NCBI RefSeq assembly: GCF_947499695.1
Contig: NZ_CANMPQ010000001.1
Location: 1,302,001-1,366,000, forward strand
Source: an uncultured Allomuricauda sp.
GTDB lineage: Bacteria > Bacteroidota > Bacteroidia > Flavobacteriales > Flavobacteriaceae
DNA length: 64,000 nucleotides
Direction of reading: 5' to 3'
Positions 20,253 through 23,190 of the stretch are shown one piece after another. Below the pieces are notes generated by a model, which worked only from the letters and a program-made list of their open reading frames with translations, had not been told where the DNA came from and did not search any database. Position numbers and translations under genes: made by a program. Every line of letters begins with the position of its first letter. Position 1 is the first letter of the stretch.

Positions 20253-20275
20253 TGCAATTACGGATTAATTGCGTG

Positions 20276-20283
20276 CAAATATA
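20276..20283 (-). promoter_or_regulatory. Putative guaB -7 element (TATATTTG)
   Basis: Exact TAnnTTTG match on the minus strand, 23 nt upstream of the guaB ATG. The nearest TTG upstream is only 12 nt away, so no convincing -33 box is proposed. Confidence 0.42.
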
Positions 20284-20340
20284 CCACTTTTAATTCAAGT
20301 ATAAATCTTATTGGTTTTTTGGTAAATTTTAATTTATTTT

Positions 20341-20361
20341 TATTTAGACTTATTATAAATA
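20341..20361. promoter_or_regulatory. Palindromic operator, site A (TATTTAGA, 5 nt, TATAAATA)
   Basis: Two 8-nt arms around CTTAT, 7 of 8 arm positions complementary, followed 5 nt later by a -7-like TATATTTA (20367-20374). One of four copies in the 20.3-23.2 kb region (others at 21794, 23054, 23121). Binding here would cover the promoter of the DUF6686-like gene, suggesting repression. Confidence 0.6.
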
Positions 20362-20396
20362 ATAAATATATTTACATGATAAAACAGCAGAGAATT

Positions 20397-20747
20397 ATGT
20401 GCGAGTCCCAAAAAATCCTTAGTCAAACTAAAAATGGAACATTGACCTTTTGTGATAAAAGCAAGCTTTTTCAAATGGTCTATAACAATCTATGCTTTGA
20501 GTTATACGAATGGGAATTGGATTCATTTAAATCCTATATCTCCCAACTGGATATCTCTTATTGGGAAAACGAGTTTAAAAATTGGATCCATGAACGTAAA
20601 ATACCAATCTCTGTGGGTCAAAAGCACTTTATTATTTTAGTAAGCAAATGTGAAATTCTGGAGATTAAACGCCTGTTGTCTATTAACCTCAACCAGCTGA
20701 AGCTTCTCGCTTATAAAGAAATAAACTACACCTTTATTGAGAATTGA
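20397..20747 (+). CDS. Small DUF6686-like protein with operator-controlled promoter
   Basis: A 116-residue soluble protein opening MCESQKILSQTKNG, with LTFCDKSKLFQMVYNNLCFELYEWELDSF; the Cys near the start, the NG-x-L-x-x-C pattern and the NNLCFELYEWE stretch resemble the Bacteroidota DUF6686 group, whose function is unknown. The ATG at 20376 is in frame but lies almost at the predicted transcription start, so the ATG at 20397, after AGCAGAGAA, is preferred. Five cysteines could bind metal. Its 3' end overlaps by 14 bp the convergent membrane-protein gene, and it shares an operator motif with that operon. Confidence 0.6.
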   Translation: MCESQKILSQTKNGTLTFCDKSKLFQMVYNNLCFELYEWELDSFKSYISQLDISYWENEFKNWIHERKIPISVGQKHFIILVSKCEILEIKRLLSINLNQLKLLAYKEINYTFIEN

Positions 20748-21249
20748 GGTCTTTACCTTTTTTACTACTTCCCACGCACTGTAAAAAGACTAGTGCAGCG
20801 GAAAAAGTAAAGGTAAGCGTCATAAGAGTACCTGAAAAAATAACGATGTATTTCATCCATGATATACCTTTCCACATAAGATATATGCCCCCAAAGGTCA
20901 ACAGAACTGAAAGAAAAGGTTCTATGGTCAAAAACAGCTTCCAGTTCTTGGGAAACTTGGCAATCCAAACCAATCCACCTAACAAGAAGAAAATAAACGA
21001 CATGGATAAGATATGGGTATGGACAATGGTAAGCATCTCCCGCTCCCCTTTTCGAAACTTCATGACCGTCGCACTCTCATCCTCTTCATTGCCCAAATAA
21101 TTCTCCTCTAAACCAGCTGGTGTTGTGGCCTCTGTCTGCCCTATAAACAAAAGCCCTGTAAAAAAGCCTATGGAAAGTACTATAACAAATACCGCAATAA
21201 AAAGTCGGAGTTCTTTCGGGAAATTAGTCAGAAGACCGTTATATTCCAT
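20734..21249 (-). CDS. Four-helix membrane protein, partner of the FMN-binding protein
   Basis: A 171-residue membrane protein with four predicted helices (about 15-38, 72-95, 104-127, 130-158). Helix 2 starts with IVHTHIL, two histidines that could bind heme, and an exposed loop between helices 1 and 2 (TEATTPAGLEENYLGNEEDE) is long and acidic. I do not recognise a named family. The start ATG overlaps the stop of the FMN-binding protein gene by 1 nt (TAATG), so the two are translationally coupled. An electron-transfer role with the flavoprotein is a reasonable inference, not shown by the sequence. Confidence 0.6.
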   Translation of the reverse strand: MEYNGLLTNFPKELRLFIAVFVIVLSIGFFTGLLFIGQTEATTPAGLEENYLGNEEDESATVMKFRKGEREMLTIVHTHILSMSFIFFLLGGLVWIAKFPKNWKLFLTIEPFLSVLLTFGGIYLMWKGISWMKYIVIFSGTLMTLTFTFSAALVFLQCVGSSKKGKDLNSQ

Positions 21250-21779
21250 TATAACTGTTCTTTTTCCTGAAGAATCCCAATAGTTTGTAAAAGATTATCC
21301 ATGGATTTTGTCATGGAACGGACGGAGATGGTAGCTCCGGAAATAGCATCAATATTAGTTTCATCACTTACCCGGTCACCGCCAGTTTTCCCAACAAATT
21401 GCTTAAGCCATCTTTTACTGCCTATTTCCCCGCCATATTCTTCACGATATATAAGCACTTTGGAATTCAAGACTTTTAAATCACCATCAAAAACTACCAA
21501 ATAATCAAATTTGGCCGTTTTGCTCGGTGCCTGATCGACAAAAGCATAACCCAATATCGAATCTTGAAGGTCAATCTTGTAGAAATTATCCCCAGAAATT
21601 TTGGTGGGAAGTGCTTCATTAATTTCCTGGGTAACCGTAACTGGAGTCAAACTGAAGTCGGAGACCTCAAAAGTCTTCTCAACTTCCTTTATAACCCTTT
21701 TATGGACTCCTTTTGGAATACCAAATCCAAAGAAAAGTAACAAAACAAAAAGTGTTGCAAATGGTTTGACAATTTTCAT
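21249..21779 (-). CDS. Exported FMN-binding domain protein
   Basis: A 176-residue exported protein: N-terminal hydrophobic helix (about 5-22), then an FMN-binding domain. The segment DAISGATISVRSM near the C-terminus holds the S-G-A-T motif in which the threonine receives FMN covalently from an ApbE-type transferase in this family (established for NqrC/RnfG-like proteins). It is the first gene of a coupled pair with the four-helix membrane protein. The -7-like box TATATTTG (21784-21791) lies only 5 nt before the ATG, so the transcript may be nearly leaderless, and operator site B overlaps the promoter. No nqr/rnf genes are adjacent. Confidence 0.78.
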   Translation of the reverse strand: MKIVKPFATLFVLLLFFGFGIPKGVHKRVIKEVEKTFEVSDFSLTPVTVTQEINEALPTKISGDNFYKIDLQDSILGYAFVDQAPSKTAKFDYLVVFDGDLKVLNSKVLIYREEYGGEIGSKRWLKQFVGKTGGDRVSDETNIDAISGATISVRSMTKSMDNLLQTIGILQEKEQL

Positions 21780-21783
21780 GCCT

Positions 21784-21814
21784 CAAATATATTAATTTAG
21801 ACTTATTATGAATA
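21784..21814 (-). promoter_or_regulatory. Promoter and operator site B of the FMN-binding operon
   Basis: The -7-like TATATTTG (21784-21791, minus strand) is preceded after 2 nt by the 8-5-8 operator AATTTAGA, CTTAT, TATGAATA (21794-21814), the weakest of the four copies (5 of 8 arm positions complementary). The site lies where the -33 region would be. Confidence 0.5.
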
Positions 21815-21845
21815 AAAATAAGCCGAATAATCTTTCAACAGCACG

Positions 21846-21873
21846 AAAAAAAAGGTGTGGTTAAAACCACACC
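21846..21873 (-). terminator. Terminator overlapping the end of the porin gene
   Basis: A 9-bp perfect stem GGTGTGGTT / AACCACACC with a 2-nt spacer, followed on the minus strand by eight T. The porin stop codon (21861-21863) lies inside the hairpin, so the last codons (Val-Trp-Phe-stop) double as the terminator stem. It also insulates the downstream FMN-binding operon. Confidence 0.85.
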
Positions 21874-23039
21874 CCTATTCCAAAATTAAGTCTGTCGGTA
21901 ACATCGTCACCGTCCAAAGCGTTGCTCCTGAACTGATAATCTCCTTTGATTACCACGCCAGGGGCGATATGATAGGTAAGTCCTGTTGTTACATCTGTAC
22001 GGTCGTACGCTTCATTTTCTACCAAAGCACCATCGGTATTGGCATGGGTGTCATATTTTTCGTAGCGTGCGAAAGCGAATAGTTTTTGTCTTTTACCTGA
22101 CGGGAGTAGATTATAAGCACCCTCAACATACCATCCTTGTAGGGCACTACCCAAATCTCTTCCTGTTAGATTGTTATAGGCTTCAGTATCTGACAAAGAA
22201 GCATGGATAAATTGTCCACGTGCGGTAAAACGTTGATAAGCGTATCTTGCATCAAGTCCAAACATTGCCATTCCAATGTCGGAACCATCAAATTGTTCTA
22301 CATCATCGGCTGCTTGTGTACGTCCAAAATAAGTTGAAAACCCAAGACGCAAACCACGAATTCCATAATAGTCCAACTTGGTGGACAGATTTGGACTATC
22401 AATAGTTGAGCGAATACCTTTCTGTCTTCCGCTTCTTAATCCATTCGAGCCTCTTAAAATTCCAGAAACTCCTCCTTCGCCATCTGCTTCTGAGGATTTA
22501 AAACCGTTAAATAGATACGCTTGATAGCCAAGAGAAATAGAATTGAATCTGCCTGTTACCCCTACTCCAAGTTCTCTCCAGGTTGTGGGTACAATTACAT
22601 TATCTACCATAGGTCTTTCTGTTCCGTTGAAGGTTGTAGGTTCGTGAAATTCATTCACAATACCCATAGGAACAAGCATTAAACCCCCTCTAATATTTAA
22701 GTTAGGTGCCGCATTATAGTTTACAAATGCCTGCTCAACAAAAACTTCTTCTACGTGCTCAAACTCAATTTCTGTTACAAACTGGGTACGGTCATCAAAA
22801 CGATATCCAAAGAGTATTACCAGACGTTGCACATCTATTTCACCATTTTGACCATTTGGCTGATTGTACAACATCTCCCCATAAGCCCCAACTGTAACCG
22901 CCGAAGCATAATTTCCCGAAAGAAGTCGTTGCGCCGCATTGATTTGTTTTTGAGGATCCAAGGTAATGGAATCGGTTTGCGTCTGCGCAAAAATTGATGT
23001 TGAAACTAGCAATGCTAAAAGAAGGGTGTACTTCCTCAT
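21861..23039 (-). CDS. Outer-membrane porin (phosphate-selective-porin-like)
   Basis: About 392 residues starting at MRKYTLLLALLVS (ATG at 23039), with signal peptide cleavage near IFAQ. The mature protein has alternating hydrophobic/polar strands (YGEMLYNQ, VILFGYRFDDRTQFVTEIEFEHVEEVFVEQAFVNY, GGLMLVPMGIVNEFHEPTTFNG) and ends in phenylalanine (GIGVWF), the typical beta-barrel terminus. Substrate unknown. Upstream there is a well-formed promoter (TTTG at 23115-23118, 20 nt, TATATTTG at 23087-23094) flanked on either side by operator copies C and D. Co-regulation with the FMN-binding operon suggests uptake of a limiting nutrient, possibly iron. Confidence 0.82.
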   Translation of the reverse strand: MRKYTLLLALLVSTSIFAQTQTDSITLDPQKQINAAQRLLSGNYASAVTVGAYGEMLYNQPNGQNGEIDVQRLVILFGYRFDDRTQFVTEIEFEHVEEVFVEQAFVNYNAAPNLNIRGGLMLVPMGIVNEFHEPTTFNGTERPMVDNVIVPTTWRELGVGVTGRFNSISLGYQAYLFNGFKSSEADGEGGVSGILRGSNGLRSGRQKGIRSTIDSPNLSTKLDYYGIRGLRLGFSTYFGRTQAADDVEQFDGSDIGMAMFGLDARYAYQRFTARGQFIHASLSDTEAYNNLTGRDLGSALQGWYVEGAYNLLPSGKRQKLFAFARYEKYDTHANTDGALVENEAYDRTDVTTGLTYHIAPGVVIKGDYQFRSNALDGDDVTDRLNFGIGVWF

Positions 23040-23053
23040 TTGTTTGTTATTAT

Positions 23054-23141
23054 TATTTAGATTGATTTTAAATAAATTGATGGCAGCAAATATATTTCGA
23101 CCGTTGGAATGGACCAAATTTATTTAGACTTAATTTAAATA
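23054..23141 (-). promoter_or_regulatory. Porin promoter with operator sites C and D
   Basis: -33 TTTG (23115-23118) and -7 TATATTTG (23087-23094) with a 20-nt spacer. Operator D (TATTTAGA, CTTAA, TTTAAATA; 23121-23141) sits just upstream of the -33 box, and operator C (TATTTAGA, TTGAT, TTTAAATA; 23054-23074) just downstream of the expected start site. Arms are 7 of 8 complementary in both. The flanking arrangement fits a repressor that bridges or blocks the promoter. Confidence 0.62.
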
Positions 23142-23190
23142 AATTTTAATATTTAACATTTTGGTGACTTAGGAAGCAACCTGTAGTCAA

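Follow-up and report, generated by a model that had tools for sequence, protein, structure and literature searches.

Four copies of a palindromic dyad stand in promoter regions of the window, a stretch of 64,000 nucleotides (nt) from an uncultured Allomuricauda sp. (G000:C1:1302001-1366000 of the 3.73 Mb genome G000), and they are very probably operators that place the genes behind them under iron control by the regulator Fur, whose binding here is predicted. The genes concerned are that of a DUF6686 protein and those of a cassette comprising a porin, a flavin mononucleotide (FMN)-binding protein and a membrane protein with four transmembrane helices (4-TM protein). One in three of the related genera sampled has this set of porin and flavin protein, which may aid iron uptake. 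We also put forward a broader proposal, tentatively and with the chances of its holding in full somewhat below even: a Flavobacteriaceae Fur with Asn in place of a guanine-reading Arg would read the lineage-specific dyad ATTTAGA-N5-TCTAAAT and control a reductive route of iron uptake made up of the porin, a periplasmic protein that is flavinylated and a 4-TM protein as a new electron donor. In this proposal the flavoprotein would, together with a 4-TM or DUF6686-like protein, pair either with the porin or with a TonB receptor/DUF6607 locus.

The dyad in the window and at porin promoters

Mismatches were counted against the symmetric core ATTTAGA-N5-TCTAAAT with its 14 fixed positions, and exactly four places in the 64 kb lie within two mismatches of it, all in promoter regions (Table 1). 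A sequence-only reading of the window had sited four 21-mers at these positions and assigned each to a promoter, and both statements held when the positions were read again. Dinucleotide shuffles of the window (n = 60) gave a mean of 0 places at up to one mismatch against 3 observed, and a mean of 0.93 (maximum 3) at up to two mismatches against 4 observed; shuffling of positions 20253-23190 alone (~2.9 kb; n = 400) gave a mean of 0.05 and a maximum of 2 against the same 4. The 21-mer pattern of the sequence-only reading has 7 strand matches in the window, where 1.07 are expected.

The dyad is the same as the Fur box of Riemerella anatipestifer, ATTTAGAATTATTCTAAAT, which was predicted from Fur-regulated promoters (PMC5609570), and because of this identity Fur, rather than a regulator of the DtxR family, is most likely the protein that reads the four sites; the sequence-only reading had left the choice between the two open within an iron box that is itself supported. 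Fur of R. anatipestifer bound all four promoters tried by electrophoretic mobility shift assay (PMC5609570), transcription of rhuH rose in a fur mutant, in a Fur-box mutant and under iron limitation (PMC11967795), and Fur regulation together with a Fur box is reported for feoA/feoB (PMC10434265). The rhuH site is taken to be the same in both Riemerella papers on the basis of the equal distances of 25 and 78 bp.

The family survey covered 120 genomes, each from a different genus, and porin orthologues (E up to 1e-30; 47 genomes had any match) are present in 40 of them, all 40 also with the FMN gene, which occurs in 43. We read 39 porin promoters (30 + 9), two of them from gene fragments (G008, G113), leaving out a C-terminal porin fragment with no upstream sequence (G106). 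Within two mismatches, every one of the 39 has a box; when up to three are allowed, 37 carry a pair and only G063 and G092 do not. The upstream box (box U) ends 27 nt before a TAnnTTTG motif in 32 promoters and 28 nt before it in five, while in G052 and G092 TAnnTTTG was not found at the expected spot downstream of box U. The second box (box D) follows 58-73 nt from box U, start to start, in the 37 pairs.

Core promoters were read with the Bacteroidetes -33/-7 consensus, and in the window, on the minus strand, the two porin boxes flank such a promoter, as the sequence-only reading had described. Elements of the -7 and -33 kind are also mentioned in the literature (PMC5609570). The twin boxes thus bracket the core promoter, a layout that would suit repression. 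The distances between the boxes fall into 58-62 (seven pairs), 66-67 (two) and 69-73 nt (28), i.e. two modes about one helical turn apart with the window's own 67 nt between them, and helical phasing of the boxes was considered but is not claimed. The copy ahead of the FMN gene, which had been put on a par with the others, is present in the window but kept in just 7 of 30 FMN loci, compared with twin boxes at 37 of 39 porin promoters. The porin is better viewed as the first gene of a porin-FMN-4TM cassette.

Iron genes at the box in this genome and across the family

Raw counts over the whole genome are not enriched: the core at up to two mismatches has 38 matches per strand against 50 for the backward-read pattern, and the 21-mer pattern at up to three mismatches has 59 against 64 for its backward version, both strands counted. 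These numbers weigh against the reading as Fur operators, and for this reason a trained profile was used in place of raw counts. It is a sequence-only profile built from 57 boxes in porin promoters of other genera, none from G000; its E-values are rough, according to the search tool's own warning, and only the top of its ranking is informative. A pattern no commoner at two to three mismatches than its backward control is also what would be expected if AT-rich promoter sequence resembled the dyad by chance. That explanation is nonetheless extremely unlikely for the four sites, with 0.05 sites against 4 in the region shuffles and a porin box 27 or 28 nt from TAnnTTTG in 37 of 39 genera, and it is already contradicted by the conservation across genera.

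The profile has 17 matches in G000 at E up to 10, ten of them at E up to 0.134. Box 1 of the window is the top-scoring match of the whole genome (E 1.9e-4), followed by boxes 4 and 3; ranks 4-6 fall at feoA-feoB, at a TonB receptor/DUF6607 pair and at a gene read as sdhC (no Pfam match, adjoining a gene read as sdhA). Ranks 7-10 are box 2 (E 0.022), weakened by A as its first letter and a G within its right arm, the gap between ferritin and a 53-amino-acid (aa) open reading frame (ORF), the hemA/AraC-type gene pair and a 75-aa ORF. FeoA, FeoB, the TonB receptor, DUF6607, HemA, the AraC-type protein and ferritin were identified by Pfam match. The following seven matches (E 1.3 to 9) include the second box of the TonB-receptor pair and one at a cytochrome c/SPOR pair, and an Fe-S assembly gene (PF01521) has a two-mismatch box directly 5' of it that is absent from the profile list. 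With feoAB, the TonB receptor/DUF6607 pair, the gene read as sdhC, hemA and the neighbourhood of ferritin at its top sites, the ranking agrees with the iron box proposed from the sequence; a scatter of sites without relation to metal genes, named beforehand as the contrary outcome, was not seen. The genome-wide search that had been suggested showed no enrichment with the raw pattern; the profile has both the TonB receptor and feoAB among its top sites.

A few minor features lie beside these sites. The box at C2:881771 was considered as a ferritin operator and rejected, as it lies 3' of ferritin and upstream of the 53-aa ORF; this basic, Cys-rich ORF (L030:5556-5750, G000:C2), directly downstream of the box and behind ferritin, could encode a small metal-binding protein. 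The 75-aa ORF (L031:5542-5766, G000:C2:995767), which has no Pfam match, begins 5 nt behind the rank-10 box. A one-mismatch dyad absent from the profile list (L136, G000:C2:982247) stands between two genes, one read as an NAD(P)/FAD oxidoreductase and the other for a 240-aa exported-looking protein.

Across the 120 genera, the exact dyad ATTTAGA-NNNAN-TCTAAAT has 97 strand matches in 52 genomes, compared with 17 for the backward pattern. Thirty of the 97 were fetched as loci and read, with proteins read by eye and Pfam applied to examples, and 29 of the 30 are intergenic; a coding-sequence origin of the recurrent exact palindromes with G-rich centres was rejected on this count. The divergent hemA/AraC pair makes up 16 of the loci and a multihaem cytochrome c/SPOR pair another eight, with single loci at a DUF6686 gene, a ferredoxin and an Mrp-type Fe-S carrier. 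G000 is also boxed at the hemA/AraC and cytochrome c/SPOR places. The hemA/AraC dyad (G000:C2:341441, L033:5443; also L148, L150, L153, L155 and L156) is exact or near-exact in many genera; it is apparently an operator of Fur type, shared across the family, that stands between a haem-synthesis gene and one of AraC type. The dyad of the divergent cytochrome c/SPOR pair (G000:C3:66079, L034:5081; also L149, L151, L152, L154, L158, L161, L162 and L175) often has a G-rich centre.

Several observations weigh against iron-controlled Fur operators at all of these places. Among the 30 exact-dyad loci, one lies inside an ORF and two are without an evident iron link (a lycopene cyclase; a fatty-acid hydroxylase whose neighbour was read as LysE). 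Of the ten best profile matches in G000, one stands at the 75-aa ORF of no known family, and the ferritin-adjoining box is on the 3' side of ferritin. The sdh, hemA, Fe-S and ferritin genes are not uptake genes in the simple sense, which may make plain repression at all sites doubtful. In the Riemerella work itself, one of the promoters tested by mobility shift (sprT) has a poor box match in the paper's own table (PMC5609570), and the box quoted for this organism in a later paper is that of E. coli (PMC7976709), a discrepancy in print.

Fur as the predicted reader of the box

The sequence-only reading had placed the regulator outside the window, and the one full-length Fur gene of G000 (151 aa; PF01475, E 3.6e-26) is indeed found at C1:157322. 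The protein is 97% identical to Fur of Flagellimonas aquimarina and 89-97% identical to Fur across at least 80 loci, mostly of Flagellimonas/Allomuricauda and neighbours, which places the host close to this group. Downstream of the gene lies purA (read by eye), as it does of the single Fur gene of Flavobacterium psychrophilum (PMC9331221). G000 also encodes FeoAB, a second, short protein resembling Fur (C1:915724) and, above the family cut-off, a single protein of DtxR/MntR type (C2:245100); Fur-family matches occur in 119 of the 120 genera and the DtxR C-domain in 111.

It is very unlikely that the DtxR/MntR-family protein at C2:245100, sensing Mn2+ or Fe2+, is the regulator in place of Fur. 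DtxR-type operators are likewise AT-rich dyads of similar length, the gene stands beside one read as a ZIP transporter, and the C-domain is as widespread as stated above; the dyad, however, matches a published Fur box, and no dyad with up to three mismatches was found in 3.2 kb around the DtxR/MntR-like gene (L043). The best NCBIfam match of the protein is MntR, below the cut-off, and one cassette genome (G092, 95% complete) combines Fur and a porin box with no match to the DtxR C-domain. A further candidate is MliR, a MerR-like activator of iron genes in Bizionia argentinensis, acting on the sites alone or with Fur. The genes that go down in an mliR mutant (TonB receptor, cytochrome c, AraC-type gene, Mrp) overlap with the box-bearing set (PMC9478572), but the portion of that paper available to us gives no MliR binding site, and in Riemerella the loss of Fur or of its box derepresses the target; MliR control is improbable.

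We infer both Fur binding in this species and the direction of control. With iron present, Fe2+-Fur would bind the 19-bp dyad and block the DUF6686 gene as well as the porin-FMN-4TM operon, the latter at its main promoter and at a second one ahead of the FMN gene. Of two dimers at the porin, one would sit close upstream of the -33 element and the other past the -7 element, some six to seven helical turns further downstream. Under iron shortage the sites would be empty, and the porin, the FMN protein, the 4-TM protein and the DUF6686 protein would be made.

The Fur sequences of the family offer a possible explanation of the half-site. The motif RVSRATLYN is present in all 31 Fur sequences compared (own and 30 other genera), while the short second Fur-like protein has ATIYR in place of ATLYN. 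In an alignment of the G000 Fur to chain 4raz, which we take to be Magnetospirillum Fur (MgFur), the tyrosine among the DNA-contacting residues is retained (Y65), N66 stands in place of Arg57 and R24 in place of Lys15. In MgFur, Lys15, Tyr56 and Arg57 touch DNA, Arg57 contacting a guanine, and binding was not seen with the R57A variant (PMC4506495, whose residue numbers are lower by two than those of the chain). The box shares with the classical Fur box GATAATGATAATCATTATC a 19-bp AT-rich dyad at iron promoters and a reader of the Fur family. It differs from it in the half-site, TTTAGA instead of GATAAT, and in a reader with Asn66 and Arg24 where MgFur has Arg57 and Lys15; GATAAT hexamers of the E. 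coli type were not encountered, the half-sites reading TTTAGA or TTTAWA. We hypothesize that the exchange of Arg for Asn accounts for the half-site TTTAGA, which would make Asn66 for Arg57 a one-residue explanation for a change in the DNA code of Fur.

The cassette, its relatives and its possible role

The features of the window are collected in Table 1. The DUF6686 start was set by alignment, as relatives begin at the same methionine and the listed ORF starts further upstream. The end of the FMN gene overlaps the start of the 4-TM gene by 1 nt, and the two are coupled at -11 to +1 nt in all 30 FMN loci read. A -7-like element so near the FMN start codon (window 21779-21791) would imply that a transcript from there is leaderless or nearly so.

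Table 1. Boxes, genes and promoter elements in the window
Feature	Position	Strand	Details
Box 1, Fur-type dyad before the DUF6686 gene	20341..20361	none	TATTTAGACTTATTATAAATA; 1/14 mismatch
DUF6686 protein, 116 aa	20397..20747	+	PF20391, E 1.3e-39
4-TM membrane protein, 171 aa	20734..21249	-	H77, H79 and E110 among the invariant residues (30 sequences)
FMN-binding protein, ISGATIS motif	21249..21779	-	PF04205, E 3.2e-9
-7-like element, 4 nt ahead of the FMN start codon	21784..21791	-	TATATTTG
Box 2, weaker dyad before the FMN gene	21794..21814	none	AATTTAGACTTATTATGAATA; 2/14 mismatches
Porin, 392 aa	21861..23039	-	
Box 3 (box D), dyad downstream of the porin core promoter	23054..23074	none	TATTTAGATTGATTTTAAATA; 1/14 mismatch; profile rank 3
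Porin -7 element	23087..23094	-	TATATTTG
Porin -33 element	23115..23118	-	TTTG; 20 nt from the -7 element
Box 4 (box U), dyad abutting the porin -33 element	23121..23141	none	TATTTAGACTTAATTTAAATA; 1/14 mismatch; profile rank 2

The ISGATIS stretch of the FMN protein is conserved among relatives and contains an SGA[ST] motif. Motifs of this type are flavinylated by ApbE, and G000 has two ApbE genes. The only Pfam match of the window's porin is DUF2490, below the cut-off, and among its relatives 14 of 28 match Porin_O_P (best E 1.4e-9). Neither Pfam nor NCBIfam gave a match above the cut-off for the 4-TM protein; 10 of 30 members of its family resemble DUF2871 weakly, at E up to 10 (best 0.011). 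The predicted structure of the 4-TM protein (mean predicted local distance difference test score, pLDDT, 82.1) had no clear fold match in Foldseek (best E 0.49), and VIA-align Z values of up to 10.0 were reached against unrelated helical proteins, a range common for helical bundles. The predicted structure of the DUF6686 protein (mean pLDDT 77.7) had no clear match either (best E 0.14). A sequence search for solved relatives returned none that was clear for the 4-TM protein, the porin or the FMN protein (best E 0.58 for the last).

Outside the cassette, both DUF6686 and FMN genes keep company with iron genes. DUF6686 has 27 matches in the survey; 24 promoters were read, with the broken or partial L066, L070 and L072 left out, and genomic context was read for 22, with L067 and L071 also left out. 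A box with at most two mismatches precedes 13 of the 24. Where the same-strand gap is at least 57 nt or the neighbour is divergent, the box is present in 12 of 12, and where the gap is at most 39 nt in 0 of 10, the thresholds (two mismatches; gaps of 57 or 39 nt) having been chosen after seeing the data. The gene upstream of these ten copies is a DUF6607 gene, a TonB receptor or one for a flavodoxin/NAD-binding protein (a predicted reductase; eight similar ORFs, of which four were scanned). In G072 (L048:1501-2693), a DUF6686 gene, a DUF6686-like ORF and a second Fur gene stand in a row behind the predicted reductase gene.

FMN genes recur at TonB-receptor loci. In G104, DUF6607 is followed by an FMN-4TM pair, and twin boxes separate this group from a divergent gene read as a TonB receptor; FMN_bind and DUF6607 were identified by Pfam. 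In G108, G018 and G026, a second FMN gene lies between DUF6607 and a DUF6686-like gene; here too a TonB-receptor gene is divergent, and the twin boxes are spaced 43-48 nt. The likeness to DUF6686 is below the Pfam cut-off there, with no match in one of the three, and for one of these genes it is backed by an alignment that already held its subgroup. Twin-boxed DUF6607/TonB-receptor loci with an FMN gene thus occur in four genera in all. G063 has a second FMN gene after a DUF6607-like gene, with no box within the 5 kb read, and in G048 an FMN-4TM pair stands ahead of a gene read as ferritin. By association, both DUF6686 and the FMN gene may be counted among the iron genes.

How the cassette might work can be outlined in the same terms. 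The porin would let ferric complexes into the periplasm, and the 4-TM protein would pass electrons to the FMN protein, its FMN probably attached by ApbE; this flow would reduce Fe3+ to Fe2+ for import by FeoAB, whose genes also stand beside a box. Electron flow and ferric reduction are plausible by association, and a ferric-reduction role of the cassette has slightly less than an even chance. It is weakened by the 4-TM protein, which belongs to no recognised redox family. Alternatively, the dyads may be operators while the cassette serves another substrate or electron sink and is merely co-regulated with iron genes, a possibility that is substantial, if well short of even: the Porin_O_P family matched by half of the porin relatives (14 of 28) is named for phosphate-selective porins, and the 4-TM protein could be assigned to no known fold or family. 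The recurrence of FMN genes with twin-boxed TonB receptor/DUF6607 pairs, and once ahead of the ferritin-like gene, speaks against this alternative.

Among known systems, the R. anatipestifer Fur regulon is the closest in its box, ATTTAGA-N5-TCTAAAT, and in its iron targets, such as TonB and haem receptors and the Fur-regulated feoAB (PMC5609570, PMC11967795, PMC10434265). The family studied here adds, as known from sequence, the twin-boxed porin-FMN-4TM cassette, DUF6686 and the family-wide hemA/AraC and cytochrome c/SPOR boxes. The cassette resembles extracytosolic flavinylated systems in its FMN_bind domain with an SGAT motif and in the presence of ApbE in the genome (PMC8238504). Such systems have been linked to iron assimilation, with PepSY-like clusters repressed by Fur (PMC8238504), but the partners here are a porin and a 4-TM protein without a family, and none of the partner types named in the part of PMC8238504 available to us was seen. 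The hfpR/hfpY haem system of F. psychrophilum likewise has an iron-repressed promoter in a genome with a single Fur gene upstream of purA, but it uses a TonB receptor and a haemophore rather than a porin and a flavoprotein, and no box is given in the text of that paper as available to us (PMC9331221).

In our literature searches, DUF6686 appeared in no paper found, and no paper was found for FMN-binding, porin and iron limitation in Flavobacteri or for most of the Fur-box and Bacteroidetes terms combined. A wider search found the cassette in no title or abstract start among the matches listed, and the exact 19-mer box only in PMC5609570, again among the matches listed. The kind of operator is already known, and the twin-box layout and the target cassette are apparently undescribed in the literature searched. 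Iron homeostasis in Bacteroidetes has been called largely unknown in work on a marine relative (PMC9478572), and with an operator that is conserved and can be searched for, much of the family's iron regulon would become readable from sequence. Such an operator would also turn the 4-TM protein and DUF6686, two uncharacterised families, into concrete candidates for a part in iron uptake.

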